Shown: positions 3,015-21,903 of the stretch, in pieces
Numbering within the stretch: position 1 is the first letter of the stretch
Layout: every line of letters starts with the position of its first letter
From: a virus
IMG/VR virus record: IMGVR_UViG_3300034283_002167
Location: 1-21,903 of that record
Reading direction: 5' to 3' (one strand)
Length of the DNA: 21,903 nucleotides
The notes under the pieces: generated by a model
What the model was told of the DNA's origin: nothing
Seen by the model: only the letters and a program-made list of their open reading frames with translations
The model's database searches: none
Made by a program: the position numbers and the translations under genes

Positions 3015-3239
3015 ATGGGAACACCAGTATATATGGAAATAGAAGAAGCCTATAGCATCGTGCAATGGCACGGTGAAGAATACGGACATCGCAATCTCTG
3101 GGGTGCCCTGAACAGCATGGAAGAGAATTGGGATGATCTAGACAGTATGGAACGTGCGGCATATAAACAAGTTAAACGTGAATTAGAAAAAGAATTTCTT
3201 GCAGTCCGTGTCTTGGAAGATGACGGACAACCAGATTAG
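3015..3239 (+). CDS. Small acidic protein, unknown function
   Basis: A 74-aa protein, MGTPVYMEIEEAYSIVQWHG at the N-terminus, rich in Glu, Asp and aromatic residues with a charged helical C-terminal half (MERAAYKQVKRELEKEFLAV). The start has a clear RBS (GGAGAAG) 4 nt before the ATG and begins 1 nt after the preceding stop. I do not recognise the family. Small acidic early phage proteins often bind host proteins or mimic DNA, but that is only a general analogy. The stop codon TAG directly abuts the TTGACA box of the next promoter. Confidence 0.65.
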   Translation: MGTPVYMEIEEAYSIVQWHGEEYGHRNLWGALNSMEENWDDLDSMERAAYKQVKRELEKEFLAVRVLEDDGQPD

Positions 3240-3267
3240 TTGACAGATAAAATAAATTCTGTATAAT
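3240..3267 (+). promoter_or_regulatory. Consensus sigma70 promoter
   Basis: TTGACA at 3240-3245, a 16-nt spacer and TATAAT at 3262-3267. The predicted start is near 3274, giving an 18-nt leader with AAGGAA before the ATG at 3292. No terminator is visible between the following gene and gene 13, so this promoter probably also reads into gene 13. Confidence 0.8.
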
Positions 3268-3291
3268 TAAATAATTAACTAAGGAACTAGC

Positions 3292-4485
3292 ATGGCAATC
3301 AAGATTGATGGTATGAAAAAGAAAGCAAAAGTTAGCAGTAATAATTTCGCTGACGAAAAATATACAGGTAATGAACCTATTTGGGATTATGATCGCGCTC
3401 TGACTTTTTCAAATGAAGAATTTGACCATCATCTACGCCAAAGTTTTCGTTATTATAATTACTATTACAGCACCAAAGATCTTAAAAAATATGTTGTAGC
3501 ATGGTTGCGTCAACACGAAGGTGAGCAAGGAGTTCATAAGTTAGATAAAACTACTATTGATCGTTATCAACGCAGTGCAGATTGTCTTACCCCATTTACT
3601 GTTTGTGCATTGATCAAGGCACATGAACGTGGCATGCCTTTGCGTGATCGTCATGTAGAATACATCCTTGATGCTGTTAAACGGGTGTTGACATTAAAAG
3701 CAGATAACGACGAAGACTTTGAAGTAAAGGCAGAAGTAAAGAAAGCGGAAGTTCGTATACCAACGATACAAGACCGCATGAATGAAGTGGCTAAAAAGCA
3801 CATCTTATATTTTGAAATGCTTGAGGATGCCCTATACACAGGTGAAACTGTAGATCCTAAAGCCTACGAATACTTGATTAAAAATACTGTTCCGCAAGCA
3901 TTGATTGGTAAAATTCAAGCAGTGTTTGAACCACGCTGTGCAGAAGTGCGCGAAGCACGTACAACCAAAGATGAAGATCTTAAAGAAGCCTACAGCTATA
4001 TGAAAGCCGCAGACTATAAACGCTATGATGCTTTCTACGATAAACTATTTGCTGACTTAACAGCCTACAATCAAACTAAGCGAGCAACTAAAAAGGCCGC
4101 AGTGCGTAAGCCTCCAGCTAAAGAAAAACTAGTTAAGAGCTTGAAATATCTTAAACAAGATGCAGGTATGAAACTAGTGTCAATCAATCCAGTAGACATC
4201 GTTGGTGCAGAACAGCTATGGGTCTATAACGTTAAGAATCGTAAACTAGGTCGCTATGTAGCAGAAGACCAAGGCGGAGTGCTTGGAGTTAAAGGTACTA
4301 CGATCACAGGATTTAGTGAAACTAAGAGCACACAAAAGACTCTACGTAAACCTGAAGAACAAATTAAAACATTCCTAGCAAGTAGTAAAGTTGAACTACG
4401 TAAATTCTTAGAAAATATCAAAACTACAGAAATAAAATTAAACGGCAGGATAAACAGCGATACTATCCTACTTAAAGTAATCTAA
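3292..4485 (+). CDS. Conserved-looking hypothetical protein of T4-like phages (397 aa)
   Basis: A 397-aa soluble, lysine-rich protein with no signal peptide or membrane segment. The N-terminal third is Tyr-rich (FRYYNYYYSTKDLKKYV near 52). Residues 150-260 are charged and helical. A basic linker (KRATKKAAVRKPPAKEK near 265) leads to a C-terminal domain (about 280-397) with a SINPVDIVGAEQLWVYN strand region and a final NGRINSDTILLKVI. From memory this C-terminal pattern recurs in unannotated proteins of marine T4-like phages; I cannot verify that here and know no function. The basic linker and charge suggest nucleic-acid or capsid-related binding, which is only inference. It has its own strong sigma70 promoter and RBS, so early expression is likely, unlike its structural neighbours. 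Confidence 0.7.
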   Translation: MAIKIDGMKKKAKVSSNNFADEKYTGNEPIWDYDRALTFSNEEFDHHLRQSFRYYNYYYSTKDLKKYVVAWLRQHEGEQGVHKLDKTTIDRYQRSADCLTPFTVCALIKAHERGMPLRDRHVEYILDAVKRVLTLKADNDEDFEVKAEVKKAEVRIPTIQDRMNEVAKKHILYFEMLEDALYTGETVDPKAYEYLIKNTVPQALIGKIQAVFEPRCAEVREARTTKDEDLKEAYSYMKAADYKRYDAFYDKLFADLTAYNQTKRATKKAAVRKPPAKEKLVKSLKYLKQDAGMKLVSINPVDIVGAEQLWVYNVKNRKLGRYVAEDQGGVLGVKGTTITGFSETKSTQKTLRKPEEQIKTFLASSKVELRKFLENIKTTEIKLNGRINSDTILLKVI

Positions 4486-4513
4486 TCCCCCTCAAGGTAG
4501 CGCAAAGCCAAAC

Positions 4514-4553
4514 TTATCCTGTTGTCGATAATAAATATACGATAACAGGATAA
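4514..4553 (+). promoter_or_regulatory. RBS-sequestering hairpin upstream of gene 13
   Basis: Arms 4514-4527 (TTATCCTGTTGTCG) and 4540-4553 (CGATAACAGGATAA) form a 14-bp stem with one G-U pair in RNA and a 12-nt loop. The 3' arm contains the whole Shine-Dalgarno AGGA (4547-4550) of gene 13, 8 nt before its ATG. Read-through RNA from upstream would fold and hide the RBS. RNA begun at the late promoter in the loop would lack the 5' arm. The hairpin has no T-tract and does not look like a terminator. Confidence 0.8.
4530..4537 (+). promoter_or_regulatory. Late promoter of gene 13, inside the hairpin loop
   Basis: AATAAATA, one mismatch to TATAAATA. T4 spacing puts the start near 4543, inside the 3' arm of the hairpin, leaving a leader of about 16 nt with an exposed RBS. 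Confidence 0.6.
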
Positions 4554-4558
4554 ATTAC

Positions 4559-5476
4559 ATGTCAGATTTACCAGCAAACGTTTCAGCAACCACAGGTCTA
4601 ACAGCAAATCTCAGCCTTACAACTGAAAGCCTATTTAATCCAGCAACAGGCACGGGTGCCGGACGCATCGCCTTTGATGCTAATCTACAGGCACAGTTAA
4701 CCACAGTCCAAAGCCTGCAAAATGATATCATTGATTATATACGCTTACGTTTGGGCTATGGTATGATCGATGTTGAAGCAGATAAAGAACATTTTGACAT
4801 GGGTATCAAACAAGCCCTTATACGTTATCGCCAAAAGAGCAGTAATTCAGTAGAAGAATCATATGCGTTCCTAGACATACACCCCGAAACACAGGAATAC
4901 ATCTTGCCTAGCTATATCATGGACGTTAAACAGGTATTCCGCCGCGGCATTGGCAGCGTAACAGGCACGACTGCCAGCCAATTTGAACCATTTGCATCAG
5001 GATATCTAAACACCTACATGCTGGTAGCGGGACGAGTTGGTGGGTTAACCAACTATGAATTATTCGTAGACTATCAAAAACTAGCCATGCGCATGTTTGG
5101 TGGCTTCATGAACTTTACCTGGAACAAGGTAACTAAGAAACTAACACTAGTACGCAAACAACCATTTAATGGAACTAGCCCAAACAATGAAGTAAGTGAA
5201 AGCATCTTGCTTTGGGTCTACAACTACAAACCAGATATCATGTTGCTGAATGATCCGCAGGTATTTCCATGGATACAAGACTACGCTTATGCACTGACAT
5301 CTATGAGCATAGGTCAAGCACGTGAAAAATTCGCATCAATCGCAGGCCCACAAGGCGGTACTAGCCTTAACGGTACTGCACTCAAACAAGAAGGTCAGGC
5401 CCTACTAGATAAACTTGATGAAGAAATCAAGAACTATGTAGACGGTGGTCAACCATTAACTTGGATAATGGGTTAA
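4559..5476 (+). CDS. 13: Neck protein gp13
   Basis: A 305-aa protein, close to the 309 aa of T4 gp13. After a Thr/Ala-rich N-terminus it has IIDYIRLRLGYGMIDVE near 58, with an acidic position and KEHFDMGIKQALIRYRQKSS after it, which matches the T4 pattern [29 protein letters not shown]. Further on are a DIHPETQEYILP strand region near 102, a tyrosine- and tryptophan-rich middle and an IQDYAYALTSMSIGQAREKF helix near 240. gp13 joins gp14 to form the head-tail connector that closes the filled capsid and receives the tail. Its partner gene 14 is on the opposite strand 2.3 kb upstream, unlike T4. Expression is probably late only, because of the start-region hairpin and the loop promoter. Confidence 0.8.
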   Translation: MSDLPANVSATTGLTANLSLTTESLFNPATGTGAGRIAFDANLQAQLTTVQSLQNDIIDYIRLRLGYGMIDVEADKEHFDMGIKQALIRYRQKSSNSVEESYAFLDIHPETQEYILPSYIMDVKQVFRRGIGSVTGTTASQFEPFASGYLNTYMLVAGRVGGLTNYELFVDYQKLAMRMFGGFMNFTWNKVTKKLTLVRKQPFNGTSPNNEVSESILLWVYNYKPDIMLLNDPQVFPWIQDYAYALTSMSIGQAREKFASIAGPQGGTSLNGTALKQEGQALLDKLDEEIKNYVDGGQPLTWIMG

Positions 5477-5482
5477 AACCTC

Positions 5483-5511
5483 TAGACTTCAGCAGCGAAT
5501 TCCCGTAAAAT
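5483..5511 (+). promoter_or_regulatory. Probable sigma70 promoter for the dNMP kinase
   Basis: TAGACT at 5483-5488 (4 of 6), a 17-nt spacer and TAAAAT at 5506-5511 (5 of 6). The predicted start is near 5518, with a 17-nt leader carrying AAGGAG (5524-5529). The leader length matches the two consensus promoters upstream. Confidence 0.55.
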
Positions 5512-5534
5512 AGTATATCAACTAAGGAGTAGCT

Positions 5535-6239
5535 ATGAGTCAAGTCATTGGTATCTGTGGACTGATTGGTGCGGGCAAGGACACAGTAGCAGATTATCTG
5601 GTTAACCTACACGAATTCCGTAGAGAAAGTTTCGCCAACAGTCTCAAAGACAGCGTGGCCGCTGTGTTTGGGTGGGATCGTGAACTATTAGAAGGCCGCA
5701 CCAAACAATCAAGAGAGTGGAGAGAGCAAGTAGATCTATTCTGGGCTGATCGCTTGAAGATGCCCAAACTAACTCCACGCTGGGTCTTACAGTATTGGGG
5801 CACAGAAGTCTGCCGCCGAGCCTTCCACGATGATATCTGGGTAGCTAGTCTAGAAAATCGCCTGCGACAGAGCAAAGATGACATCGTCATCACTGATTGT
5901 CGATTTCCTAACGAACTCAAGGCCATACGCAAAGCTGGAGGTAAGATCATACGTGTCAAACGTGGAGCAGAACCCCAATGGTACGATGATGCTGTCAGCA
6001 TGAACAAAGGGCCTAGCCGTAATATGAATTGGGCCTTGAGCAAGCACAACATTGAAAAACTCAAGATACATGCCAGTGAAACTGCTTGGATTGGTAGTAA
6101 GTTTGATGCAGTGTTAGATAATAACGGCTCGTTAGATGATTTATACCTACAGATAGAACAAATATTAGTTAAAAATCAGGAACGAGATCGCCCTGCCGCC
6201 ACCCTAGGCCCTCGCGAGCAACTTCAAATTGGCAGTTAG
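5535..6239 (+). CDS. Deoxynucleoside monophosphate kinase (T4 gp1-like)
   Basis: A 234-aa protein (T4 dNMP kinase gp1 is 241 aa) with an N-terminal P-loop GLIGAGKDT at residues 9-17, including the KDT form typical of this family. It also has a VITDCRFPNELKAIRKAGG stretch near 120-140, where the Asp-Cys-Arg and basic residues fit the nucleotide-binding core, followed by IIRVKRG. The family phosphorylates deoxynucleoside monophosphates for phage DNA synthesis in the cytoplasm. A sigma70-like promoter and an AAGGAG RBS point to early or middle expression, apart from the surrounding late genes. The last 23 codons overlap the 3' end of the convergent HNH gene, and its C-terminal tail (ERDRPAATLGPRE) may be less conserved for that reason. 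Confidence 0.85.
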   Translation: MSQVIGICGLIGAGKDTVADYLVNLHEFRRESFANSLKDSVAAVFGWDRELLEGRTKQSREWREQVDLFWADRLKMPKLTPRWVLQYWGTEVCRRAFHDDIWVASLENRLRQSKDDIVITDCRFPNELKAIRKAGGKIIRVKRGAEPQWYDDAVSMNKGPSRNMNWALSKHNIEKLKIHASETAWIGSKFDAVLDNNGSLDDLYLQIEQILVKNQERDRPAATLGPREQLQIGS

Positions 6240-11772: not shown

Positions 11773-12288
11773 ATGTCAGCAACTTCGGGAAATTTACCAA
11801 CCAACGACGGCTTAAACGAAACCCAACAATACTTTAATAATTTCTACGTCCAACAGCCCGTGGTTGGCCCTAGCGAAAATGATGCAGTGGTGGCCTATTT
11901 CCAAATGATAACGGGGGACAGAGAAACCGGTAAAACACTAGCAGGTGCTGTGGTCTATACCTGCATACAGCAGAGTCTAGATCCTCTAGAAGTTGTCGAG
12001 CAGTTGAAAAAATTCAGTGACAAAAATAGGCTAACAAGTCCTACATATTCTAGTGAAACCAATAGCGATGCGCAGGACACAAATGCCTATGATCCAAATA
12101 CAGGAAACTGGACAGCAGGATCAAAACAGTATGCTAAACCAGGTCCTAGTGTGCCTTATAATAATCTCAGCGAACTTGATGCATATTTAACCATGCTGTT
12201 GAATCTTAATCGCGTAGGAACTAGTTTACTTGGATTGAGTAATAGTCCCAGGACTGGCAAATACATACAGAGAACTATCTTAGCATAA
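11773..12288 (+). CDS. Conserved-looking hypothetical structural-cluster protein (171 aa)
   Basis: A 171-aa protein with a helical first half (AVVAYFQMITGDRETGKTLAGAVVYTCIQQS near 38-68, then DPLEVVEQLKKF), a Thr/Asn/Tyr-rich linker at about 88-135, and a compact C-terminus ending LNLNRVGTSLLGLSNSPRTG plus KYIQRTILA. I recall this C-terminal pattern (LNLNRVGTS ... KYVQRSIL) in unannotated proteins of marine T4-like phages, beside structural genes, but know no function. The start has AAGGATAT overlapping the stop region of the previous gene, and the stop TAA overlaps the ATG of gene 4, so it is part of a tight operon with 10738 and gene 4. Confidence 0.65.
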   Translation: MSATSGNLPTNDGLNETQQYFNNFYVQQPVVGPSENDAVVAYFQMITGDRETGKTLAGAVVYTCIQQSLDPLEVVEQLKKFSDKNRLTSPTYSSETNSDAQDTNAYDPNTGNWTAGSKQYAKPGPSVPYNNLSELDAYLTMLLNLNRVGTSLLGLSNSPRTGKYIQRTILA

Positions 12289-12719
12289 TGGCCAAGTACG
12301 CTAACGGTAAATTTACAATAAAGAATCCAGAAAAATATATGGGGAAGAAAAGCCCTACATATCGTAGTAGTTGGGAATTCGCGTTCATGAATTTCTGTGA
12401 CAATAATCCCGCAGTACTAAATTGGACGTCAGAGAGCGTTAAGATTCCTTACTATAATCCAGTCAGTGGTAAGAATACTATCTATGTTCCAGACTTTCTC
12501 ATAGTCTACGTAGATGCCAATCAAAAGCAACATACAGAAGTAGTAGAAGTAAAGCCCTCAGCCGAGACTACCATGGAATCAGCACGTAGCTATCGTGATA
12601 AACTCAGCGTGGCTATTAATATGGCCAAGTGGGCAGCTGCGGATAGTTGGGCCCGAGCCAATAATATGCGCTTCCGTGTTATAACCGAATACGATATCTT
12701 CAAAAATGTCAAACGATAA
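12288..12719 (+). CDS. 4: Head completion protein gp4
   Basis: A 143-aa protein (T4 gp4 is 150 aa) with the family pattern: NPEKYMG near 14, YRSSWEFAFMNFCDNNPAV near 25, IPYYNPVSGKNTIYVPDFL near 53-71, VVEVKPSAET near 85 and INMAKWAAADSWA near 109. The conserved Glu in SSWE, the PDF Asp and the EVKP Glu-Lys pair are the restriction-endonuclease-like catalytic set expected of this family. In T4, gp4 (also gp50) acts after DNA packaging to complete the head before tail joining. The ATG overlaps the upstream TAA (TAATG). The stop TAA lies inside the late octamer GATAAATA of gene 16. Confidence 0.85.
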   Translation: MAKYANGKFTIKNPEKYMGKKSPTYRSSWEFAFMNFCDNNPAVLNWTSESVKIPYYNPVSGKNTIYVPDFLIVYVDANQKQHTEVVEVKPSAETTMESARSYRDKLSVAINMAKWAAADSWARANNMRFRVITEYDIFKNVKR

Positions 12720-12733
12720 ATATCGGTATGACA
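12707..12733 (+). promoter_or_regulatory. Start-codon-covering hairpin at gene 16
   Basis: TGTCA (12707-12711) pairs with TGACA (12729-12733), and CGAT (12714-12717) with ATCG (12722-12725), around an AAAT loop. The ATG at 12728-12730 lies partly in the 3' arm. The late octamer spans the loop and inner stem. The stem is interrupted and weaker than the gene 13 hairpin. Confidence 0.4.
12715..12722 (+). promoter_or_regulatory. Late promoter of gene 16, predicted leaderless
   Basis: GATAAATA, then TCGGT, then ATG. The 5-nt gap puts the predicted start on the A of the ATG at 12728. No Shine-Dalgarno precedes the ATG. Confidence 0.6.
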
Positions 12734-19604: not shown

Positions 19605-21903
19605 ATGAGAGAAATTAACAAGATAGCAGAAGGTCTATTTGAGAAAATCCGTGATAGATTCGAGGATGTCAGCTTGGGCGATGATAAAGCCAAGGCCACT
19701 ACAGATCCAGAATCTGCACGCTTTTTCAACTTTGACTATGTGATAGATGACCATGATCATGGTAATATCACCATCAGCCTGATAGATGAAACCAGCTTAA
19801 AAGTCTATTTTAGCAAGAACATCAGCGGTGATCTGGATGACGAACACAAGCAAGAATGGTATAGATTCCTACGTGAACTGCGTGAATTTGCCAAGCGCAA
19901 TCTGCTCAGCTTTGAACCCAGAGATATCACACGCTCAACCCTAAAGCATCGTGATCTACAGCAGGTCAGTAAGTCAGATGATACTTATAGTAGAGACGAT
20001 GTGGTCAGCGAAAGTCTATATGGTACTCGCAGATCAAGTTACGAAAAGAAAGGTCCTGTACGCATCATAGTTCGCCACAGCCAACCTATCCTAGATGAAG
20101 AAAATCGCCGTGCCCGAGCACATCATATCAACAGCATCTACGTTGAAAATCAAGAAGGTGAGCGTTTCAAGATGCCAGTCAAGAGCTTGAAACTAGCCCG
20201 TGCAGTAGCACAGCATTTCAAACAGGGCGGTAACCTACATGATGATCTAGGTCGACATATCTGTGAAATGGCTGTAGAAGCGGCTAAACTTAAACCATTC
20301 TTGAACAAGGTCCGCCACAGAACATTTGAAGACACGCAAACACACGCCATGGTAGAAGCAGCATTTGAATATCATGGCCTATTAAATAACACACTAACTC
20401 GCATGACAGGCAAGAAAGGTTACAAAAAATGCGCAGAACAATTTGTAGCAACATCGACTTCGTACATTCCAGAAGTTGACACCGATGAAATGAAAGAGCG
20501 TTTCGTTAAACGCACATTTGATGAACGTTTAGAGGAAGCATTACCTTTGGTACATAAGGCATATAACATGAAGAAAGAAAATAAATTTGCAGAACAATTT
20601 GAAAGCTGGGCCGACACGGTCAGTGAAGGTACTTGGGCAGTGCCAGACAGTGATGATGAAGTTGGTAAGTTGATCGACGTACTAAATCAACCCTTGCCAG
20701 TGGGAGTAGATGCACAGAACGCTACCAACGCACTGTACGATATCATCGGTGACGACAGACTGTTTGATCGTTTAGGAGAACTGGCTAAATCAGATCCAGA
20801 AGCTGATGCACGTGATCTAGTAGTTGATTGGCTACAGGATAACCTACCACACATCTATCAACAGATCATGAATGAAATCGGTGACCAAGATACACCAGCA
20901 GAACCAGCAGAAGACAATCAAGAAGTAGACGAAGGTAACACTTATGGCTCAAGCAACAGTGGTATAGATGGTGTGGTCTACGAAGAAGACAAAGAAGATT
21001 GCAAATATTGCGGCGGTGATTGTCCACATGATGAAGAACACGCCTGCGATGGTTACCTAGGTGACATTGACGACTTATACAAAGATACAGTAAAAGAAGA
21101 CGAAGAAGATGATGATGGTGGTTTCGAAGCGATCCAATCAGCTATCATACGTAGGATCGCACACAGCCATCATGAACTATTGATGAAACTAGGCCCAGAT
21201 GGTGTATTAGAAGCGGCACGTGAAATCGCCAATTGGACTGCGCCTGTTGAAGAAATTGGCACTAGTGATGTCAGTGGTTGGGTTCGACAAATTGAACAGG
21301 ACGCTGGTATTGAAAGTAAAGAAGTAACAGAGGAACGAGATATTGATGACAACGAAGAAGTTTGTGTTTACTGTGGTGACCCACGCGATGACAAACTTGG
21401 CTGCTGCGAAGAAAATCATTTTATCTCAAAGAAAGAATATGACCAAGACAATGAAGTAAACGAAGCCAAAGACAAAGTCTCATATGATCCAAAAACAGGC
21501 AAATTAACAGGCTGGGAACACGAAGGTGATTGGAAAAAACAAACTAAGAAGAAAGATCCTGTTGGTAAGATCCATCACATGAGCGATGTTGCCCGCAGAC
21601 GAACAGAAAAGATGGCTAAAGATGAGACACTAGAAGAGGCATTTGAACGTGCATTAAACGAAGCGGCTATTAACGTAGGCGATAAAGTTAAATGCCCAGA
21701 TGGCAAAGAAGGCACAGTTACAGGTGATGCAGATGGTTATTATCACGTAACAGGTGATGATGGCAAAACATACTCATATAGAATACAAGAAATTAAACCC
21801 ATTGATGAAGAAATTACCATGCCAGACAATCCTGATTATAGTCCATACGATAAACCAACTTTCCAACGCAAAGTGCCTGTGGGTTGTCCTGGAGTGATGC
21901 CTT
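19605..21903 (+). CDS. Giant modular structural-cluster protein with CxxC clusters (C-terminus outside window)
   Basis: I translated this frame by hand: it is open for 766 codons from the ATG at 19605 to the window edge without a stop. The N-terminal about 300 residues look folded (FFNFDYVIDDHDHGNITISL near 42; a GPVRIIVRHSQPILDEENRR segment near 150; NSIYVENQEGERFKMPVKSL near 178). I recall the VxxxHSxPxxxE...I(Y/F)VEN.EGERFK pattern from unannotated marine phage proteins. An acidic region then leads to two cysteine clusters: C466, C469, C473, H475, H479, C481, and C587, C590, C600, C601 with H605. The last complete module (VGDKVKCPDGKEGTVTGDAD, near 688) looks like a small KOW/SH3-type barrel. 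Function unknown; probably virion-associated from its late promoter and place after gene 17. Confidence 0.75.
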   Translation, partial: MREINKIAEGLFEKIRDRFEDVSLGDDKAKATTDPESARFFNFDYVIDDHDHGNITISLIDETSLKVYFSKNISGDLDDEHKQEWYRFLRELREFAKRNLLSFEPRDITRSTLKHRDLQQVSKSDDTYSRDDVVSESLYGTRRSSYEKKGPVRIIVRHSQPILDEENRRARAHHINSIYVENQEGERFKMPVKSLKLARAVAQHFKQGGNLHDDLGRHICEMAVEAAKLKPFLNKVRHRTFEDTQTHAMVEAAFEYHGLLNNTLTRMTGKKGYKKCAEQFVATSTSYIPEVDTDEMKERFVKRTFDERLEEALPLVHKAYNMKKENKFAEQFESWADTVSEGTWAVPDSDDEVGKLIDVLNQPLPVGVDAQNATNALYDIIGDDRLFDRLGELAKSDPEADARDLVVDWLQDNLPHIYQQIMNEIGDQDTPAEPAEDNQEVDEGNTYGSSNSGIDGVVYEEDKEDCKYCGGDCPHDEEHACDGYLGDIDDLYKDTVKEDEEDDDGGFEAIQSAIIRRIAHSHHELLMKLGPDGVLEAAREIANWTAPVEEIGTSDVSGWVRQIEQDAGIESKEVTEERDIDDNEEVCVYCGDPRDDKLGCCEENHFISKKEYDQDNEVNEAKDKVSYDPKTGKLTGWEHEGDWKKQTKKKDPVGKIHHMSDVARRRTEKMAKDETLEEAFERALNEAAINVGDKVKCPDGKEGTVTGDADGYYHVTGDDGKTYSYRIQEIKPIDEEITMPDNPDYSPYDKPTFQRKVPVGCPGVMP

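Follow-up and report, generated by a model that had tools for sequence, protein, structure and literature searches.

A candidate transcript-origin translation switch at the neck protein gene gp13 of T4-superfamily jumbo phages

Promoters, hairpin and genes at the gp13 start

The window analysed here, a 21,903-nt stretch of viral DNA (IMG/VR record IMGVR_UViG_3300034283_002167), encodes a gp13-like neck protein that is preceded on the same strand by a presumed early gene of unknown function and followed by the dNMP kinase and tail sheath genes (Table 1). Between the upstream gene and gp13 lies an inverted repeat, in which positions 4514-4527 (TTATCCTGTTGTCG) can pair with positions 4540-4553 (CGATAACAGGATAA) to form a 14-pair stem with one G-U (4524/4543). 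A late-promoter motif, AATAAATA, sits in the loop, and the Shine-Dalgarno (SD) sequence AGGA lies entirely in the 3' arm. This arrangement had been described in the initial annotation, and direct reading of the sequence shows that description to be exact.

Table 1. Coordinates of the features at the gp13 locus and of similar arrangements in relatives
Feature	Position	Strand	Basis
Sigma-70 consensus promoter, TTGACA-16-TATAAT	3240..3267	+	12/12 hexamer match; same position in relatives
Upstream gene (phrog_11903), function unknown, presumed early	3292..4485	+	Profile match
Hairpin 5' arm	4514..4527	+	Sequence; RNA fold; covariation with 3' arm
Late-promoter motif AATAAATA, in loop	4530..4537	+	Position; TAAATA in relatives
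Hairpin 3' arm	4540..4553	+	Sequence; RNA fold
SD AGGA, entirely inside 3' arm	4547..4550	+	Sequence; SD opening cost
Predicted late RNA start	4542..4544	+	T4 late TATA box spacing
gp13-like neck protein (head-tail adaptor Ad2), 305 aa, ATG 4559	4559..5476	+	phrog_211, E 3.6e-29
dNMP kinase, downstream	5535..6239	+	phrog_139
Endolysin gene	L236 136-765 (G011 about 120364)	minus	Hidden-SD scan
Tail sheath sites	L092 4812; L162 3056; L163 3053; L164 3332; L165 3378; L166 3331; L167 3331; L096 4819; L094 4889
DnaJ-like gene	L241 1579-2124 (121Q 35078)		Hidden-SD scan
Mirror sites	L126-L160 kinase starts, e.g. L127; G013 104485; G011 337808
MazG-like gene	L239 148-561 (G011 about 146660)	minus	Hidden-SD scan

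The predicted fold of the RNA from 4486 to 4620 has an energy of -28.2 kcal/mol (z -3.9), which was equalled by none of 200 shuffles. We also estimated the cost of opening the SD. When only the 5' flank (4486-4529) was dinucleotide-shuffled, with the promoter, the SD and the coding start kept fixed, the observed cost of 11.96 kcal/mol was reached in none of 500 shuffles (mean 2.63, maximum 7.21). Among the ten starts measured in the window, the gp13 start stands at about 11.9 kcal/mol versus 0.2-4.1 at eight others, of which several carry a late motif; the start at 12728 has no recognisable SD. The motif AATAAATA occurs in the window about as often as expected by chance (2 versus 1.7 expected), and it is notable by its position, its frequency alone not being significant. 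Other late-motif sites are found at 2259 (minus strand), 6594, 10007, 10714 and 13223, close 5' of structural genes or genes of unknown function, and none of these five sites has an SD-hiding hairpin. Among the tail genes of the window, a short protein (12288-12719) carries a TnsA-like endonuclease N-terminal domain (PF08722, E 9.2e-22).

We considered whether the first ten bases of the 5' arm belong to a repeat family in the window and rejected this, as their recurrence is not above chance: the ten-mer is found in both arms and, with one mismatch, at 20833, against 1.9 occurrences expected. Searching positions 3200-5600 with the Rfam covariance models gave no match at E values up to 1.

The initial annotation had also pointed to a consensus sigma-70 promoter with no terminator before gp13. 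This holds in our analysis: both hexamers of the promoter are perfect, and the scan found no terminator-like site from the promoter (3240-3267) to 4558. The total numbers of promoter-like and terminator-like sites in the scanned stretch match those in shuffles, and therefore only the 12/12 promoter match is notable. A search of the 75 nt before the upstream gene, in the 38 loci with a readable start (the window among them), found a sigma-70 promoter matching at 11 or 12 of 12 positions in 19 loci; in the other 19 the best score was 7-10, which counts against the switch proposed below.

Conservation of the motif and covariation of the arms

A DNA similarity search with positions 4300-4900 against named phages gave no match, and relatives were therefore sought by protein. 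IMG/VR loci were taken from the best 80 of 178 in a first scan, with 62 further loci from the best 80 of at least 589 in an alignment-based scan, so that the sample leans to close relatives; named phages were gathered through protein searches. This yielded 155 usable gp13 starts, from the window, 139 IMG/VR contigs (78 + 61) and 15 named phages. Start codons were set or corrected by hand in L147, L153, L162, 121Q, RaK2 and Muenster. The counts leave out three loci with too short an upstream sequence (L010, L074, L151), as well as XacN1 and RAS14 (L168, L169), where the gp13-like domain lies within a much larger annotated ORF and has no separate start. T4 and phiM12 served for comparison only, outside the counts.

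The motif TAAATA was found 12-55 nt 5' of the gp13 start in all 104 distinct upstream regions represented by the 155 loci. The hairpin is kept at most of these 155 starts despite wholly changed arm sequences. Arms resembling TTATCCTGTT are mostly kept in the near clade; in distant relatives the arms are often very different with complementarity kept, the SD stays within the 3' arm, and the motif occupies either the loop or the final part of the 5' arm. The same design with other arms is present in 11 RaK2-like phages (121Q, RaK2, Muenster, Munch, Hallingskeid, CBB, BF, XbC2, Kaldavass, GAP32 and XaC1), and in all seven RaK2-like phages tested the upstream gene is other than phrog_11903. Three loci (L004, L005 and L007) share a distinct upstream sequence and keep the hairpin with an altered 5' arm; L004 has a 412-aa ORF between the phrog_11903 gene and gp13. 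A gene for a late sigma factor of the gp55 family was found in 12 of 15 long relative records, the three records without it being fragments of 57-100 kb. One such gp55-family gene (G016:C1:57719-58576, minus strand) has a single TGA within the match, which may reflect a sequence error, recoding or decay.

We then compared the pairing of each locus's own 5' and 3' parts with that of permuted parts, using 63 representatives of less than 80% mutual identity. Own parts averaged -15.9 kcal/mol versus -8.6 (sd 0.40) for permuted ones, with none of 20,000 permutations as low, and in 22 of the 63 representatives own pairing was better than every swap. Since relatives share ancestry, arms were also swapped with the nearest relative only, as judged by gp13 sequence and with reciprocal pairs counted twice: own pairing averaged -16.6 versus -13.8 kcal/mol when swapped, being better in 48 of 63 and worse in 13. 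Relatedness is only partly corrected in these covariation tests. Among loci with the geometry of the window (36 of 103 loci, 21 distinct arm pairs), which were picked for pairing so that their high pairing is partly a matter of selection, departures from Watson-Crick pairing in 252 cells comprise 15 G-U versus 2 others (one of them A-C), with 12 of the G-U falling in a single column of all 14. In an unselected set of 86 loci, own arms formed 8.8 of 12 pairs versus 7.6 for swapped arms, whose maximum over 300 swaps was 8.0. Compensatory change in the arms of relatives, which the initial annotation had named as a check on its proposal, is thus strongly evident from the permutations, the nearest-relative swaps and the G-U departures.

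Other tests of the stem as RNA are less one-sided. Over the 63 representatives, the stems contain 71 G-U in 849 pairs, and A-C accounts for 7 of the 11 single mismatches. Of the 63 representatives, 39 show better folding of the transcript strand than of its complement and 23 show the reverse (p 3.5e-4, kinship ignored). The strand test is mixed and A-C is not rare among single mismatches, which counts against the switch proposed below. The stem data lean towards a structured RNA and away from a palindrome in the DNA, with less contrast than the near clade shows.

We next estimated the cost of opening the gp13 SD at 64 loci, both in read-through RNA and in a late RNA modelled as starting 5 nt 3' of the motif. 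The predicted median is 10.1 kcal/mol in read-through RNA versus 1.2 in late RNA, whereas for 56 other starts with a late motif, taken from these loci, the medians are 2.0 and 1.2; a cost of at least 8 kcal/mol is found at 41 of the 64 gp13 loci versus 2 of the 56 other starts. For the window the predicted values are 11.9 and 2.8 kcal/mol. By the same measure, T4 e, the experimentally established case, gives 10.8 kcal/mol in read-through RNA versus 1.9 in RNA from its upstream late promoter, and T4 I-TevII gives 11.3 versus 0.3; the T4 gene 13 start costs 4.2 kcal/mol, and the late motif is absent from the stretch examined there. These predictions agree with the earlier claim that read-through RNA conceals the SD and late RNA exposes it.

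Thirteen of the 64 loci, including PA5oct and Vibrio 2.275.O, have intermediate costs of 4-8 kcal/mol, and ten are below 4 (L073, L103, L125, L131, L133, L137, L140, L152, L156 and L091/Atu_ph07). Most of these ten share the same upstream gene; in L073 the stem is kept and the SD lies outside it. The absence of the effect at these ten loci is consistent with a device that can be lost, and it restricts how universal the device can be called. The five loci without an adjacent upstream gene on the same strand (L091, L093, L095, L131, L146) have costs of 1.1-8.3 kcal/mol versus a median of 11.0 in the 59 others (p 0.007), in a grouping made after the values were seen and among related loci. PA5oct has such a neighbour, yet its gp13 cost is weak (4.8). 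A dependence of hairpin strength on the adjacent same-strand gene is therefore only suggestive.

A proposed switch set by the origin of the transcript

We propose that the gp13 start is a translation switch that responds to where the transcript began, and we consider this very likely, judging from the sequence and from the analogy with T4. Transcripts begun early at the sigma-70 promoter (3240) would read through the upstream gene into gp13 and so contain the 5' arm, which would occur only in RNA entering from upstream. In this read-through RNA, 4514-4527 would fold onto 4540-4553 and hide the SD, and gp13 would not be made early. Later in infection, a gp55-type sigma factor of the phage would start RNA at AATAAATA in the loop. 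The late TATA box of T4 precedes the RNA start by about one helical turn (PMC2988020), and the late RNA should therefore lack the 5' arm whatever its exact start; it would begin at or within the 3' arm (about 4542-4544), leaving the SD free. Such a switch had been put forward in the initial annotation, and it is supported by the covariation of the arms, the promoters, the gp55-family genes and the predicted hiding of the SD.

Other functions of the inverted repeat have to be weighed against this switch. The repeat might chiefly terminate transcription of the early unit upstream, and the late promoter would then be nested in it as an economy of space. A T-run follows the stem in some relatives, such as 121Q, BF, CBB and XaC1, and 12 of the 63 representatives have at least five T among the 10 nt directly 5' of the ATG. 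However, the window has no T-run or terminator-like site at the stem, and the T-run is absent in 51 of the 63 representatives, including RaK2, Muenster and Hallingskeid, whereas the SD in the 3' arm is a shared feature. We regard termination as the main role as very unlikely; in the members with a T-run, termination and SD hiding may coexist. Stems of this type can also be cleaved, or can protect RNA ends, and a stability or processing element such as a nuclease site would be compatible with the sequence. Such an element would need neither an SD in its arm nor a promoter in its loop, and the late RNA, presumably the abundant one, would be without the stem. We regard a stability role, in place of a translation switch, as likewise very unlikely.

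The symmetry of the arms about the promoter, near-palindromic in the window, could instead point to a DNA operator, palindromic and enclosing the late promoter. An operator would be hard to reconcile with arms that are replaced wholesale with pairing retained and no conserved arm sequence, or with G-U in place of Watson-Crick pairs on the transcript strand, and the other late promoters of the window have no such repeat. We consider it extremely improbable.

The proposed translation switch would have clear precedents in T4. The leaders of T4 e, soc and 49 are known cases in which early RNA hides the SD (PMC3014915). For T4 e, as described in that source, the SD is sequestered by a helix in the long early RNA and is free in the late RNA, and the late promoter lies within the stretch that encodes the 5' strand of the helix; the effect on translation is given there as about 100-fold. 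The predicted costs are also alike (10.8/1.9 for e and 11.9/2.8 for gp13 in the window), and the mechanism proposed here rests on this strong analogy. The present case differs from T4 e in that the gene encodes a neck protein, with other sequences and at another place in the genome, and in that the gp13 device is kept across many lineages with changing arms. Late promoters inside hairpins that hide the ribosome-binding site are likewise described for the leaders of T4 I-TevI, I-TevII, I-TevIII and segB and of Aeh1 mobE (PMC2988022). These leaders belong to homing endonucleases, in contrast to the gene here, which would be an essential-type virion gene by inference from its T4 homologue.

In the RaK2-like phages CBB and GAP32, the same late motif, ATAAATA, precedes structural genes and a gp55-like sigma factor is predicted, with 35 occurrences of the motif reported; no hairpin is mentioned at these promoters in the available text of that source (PMC5259590). 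The terms 'gene 13' and 'gp13' are absent from the main text of PMC3014915. Among the open-licence papers listed in our searches, a set that mostly excludes subscription papers, titles and abstract openings contain no report of the gp13 device or of the mirror form described below. The initial annotation likewise named e, soc and I-TevI as T4 cases of this logic and knew of no report for gene 13. The logic itself, that of e and I-TevI, is known, and what appears to be new is its site at gp13 and its wide conservation.

The deep conservation of the device suggests that the phage is harmed when the neck protein is made early. The switch would offer a way to interleave early and late genes on one strand without separate terminators, and its many sequence-changed stems would amount to a natural experiment on the silencing of genes on RNA that cannot be avoided. 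A handful of T4 cases might thereby become a widely conserved rule that predicts late genes in uncultured giant phages.

Hidden Shine-Dalgarno sequences at other genes

We scanned four relatives for hidden SDs, considering only starts with a recognisable SD (838 of 1452 ORFs from a custom ORF calling). There are few matches per genome, and these are enriched at late-motif genes: an SD cost of at least 8 kcal/mol was found at 14 of 149 starts with TAAATA versus 14 of 689 without (Fisher p 7e-5), although at least 3 of the 14 TAAATA matches may reflect inverted late motifs alone. These three (G012 93400 and 93451, G013 56555) are apparently back-to-back late motifs near divergent genes, an arrangement that produces hairpins by itself.

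The endolysin gene of a 374-kb contig has the late motif in an SD-hiding hairpin, with a cost of 11.0 versus 1.3 kcal/mol; this gene, which emerged from the scan unsought, is the direct counterpart of T4 e. At the tail sheath gene of 121Q, located after the kinase gene, a late-motif hairpin likewise hides the SD, and the device is present at all nine RaK2-like sheath starts read, a set without RaK2 and Muenster (11.0-14.3 versus 1.7-5.0 kcal/mol). There, the hairpin has a long loop; its 5' arm, rich in ATCC(T/C), lies beside AATAAATA, and its 3' arm contains the SD GGAGG; the PA5oct sheath start gives 4.8 versus 3.0 kcal/mol. In 121Q, a DnaJ-like gene located after those for IF3 and the ClpS adapter shares this device and has a T-run as well (13.4 versus 0.7 kcal/mol). 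The proposal of a switch at gene 13 is supported, with a correction of its scope: sheath, endolysin and other genes share the device, and some gp13 loci do not show the effect.

A putative mirror form was found 5' of the dNMP kinase gene in a related clade. There, the kinase SD lies in a terminator-like hairpin whose 5' arm is continuous with the -10 box of a sigma-70 promoter. TTGACx is followed, after 16-18 nt, by a TAAAAT-like box that merges into GCTCC..GGAGC or a similar sequence, and then by a T-run and the ATG. Opening the SD requires at least 6 kcal/mol in read-through RNA at 24 of 50 kinase starts, and the median over all scorable starts is 1.6 kcal/mol in RNA from the gene's own promoter. 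The kinase start of the window is without the mirror device (4.1 kcal/mol).

These cases lead us to favour, by a slight balance of probability, a general origin code in T4-superfamily jumbo phages, in which promoters nested in hairpins police early/late borders in both directions where early and late genes alternate on one strand. If so, the start point of each RNA would decide whether it is translated and perhaps whether it is terminated, and T4 e would be one case of this code. Its late side would comprise gp13, the RaK2-like sheath, the endolysin and the DnaJ-like gene. On its early side, sigma-70 boxes or the spacer between them would serve as the 5' arm of an SD-hiding hairpin, in many cases resembling a terminator, at the dNMP kinase and probably at a MazG-like pyrophosphatase. 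At the MazG-like gene of the 374-kb contig, the SD pairs with the spacer between the gene's own -35 and -10 boxes, and this gene may be another mirror case.
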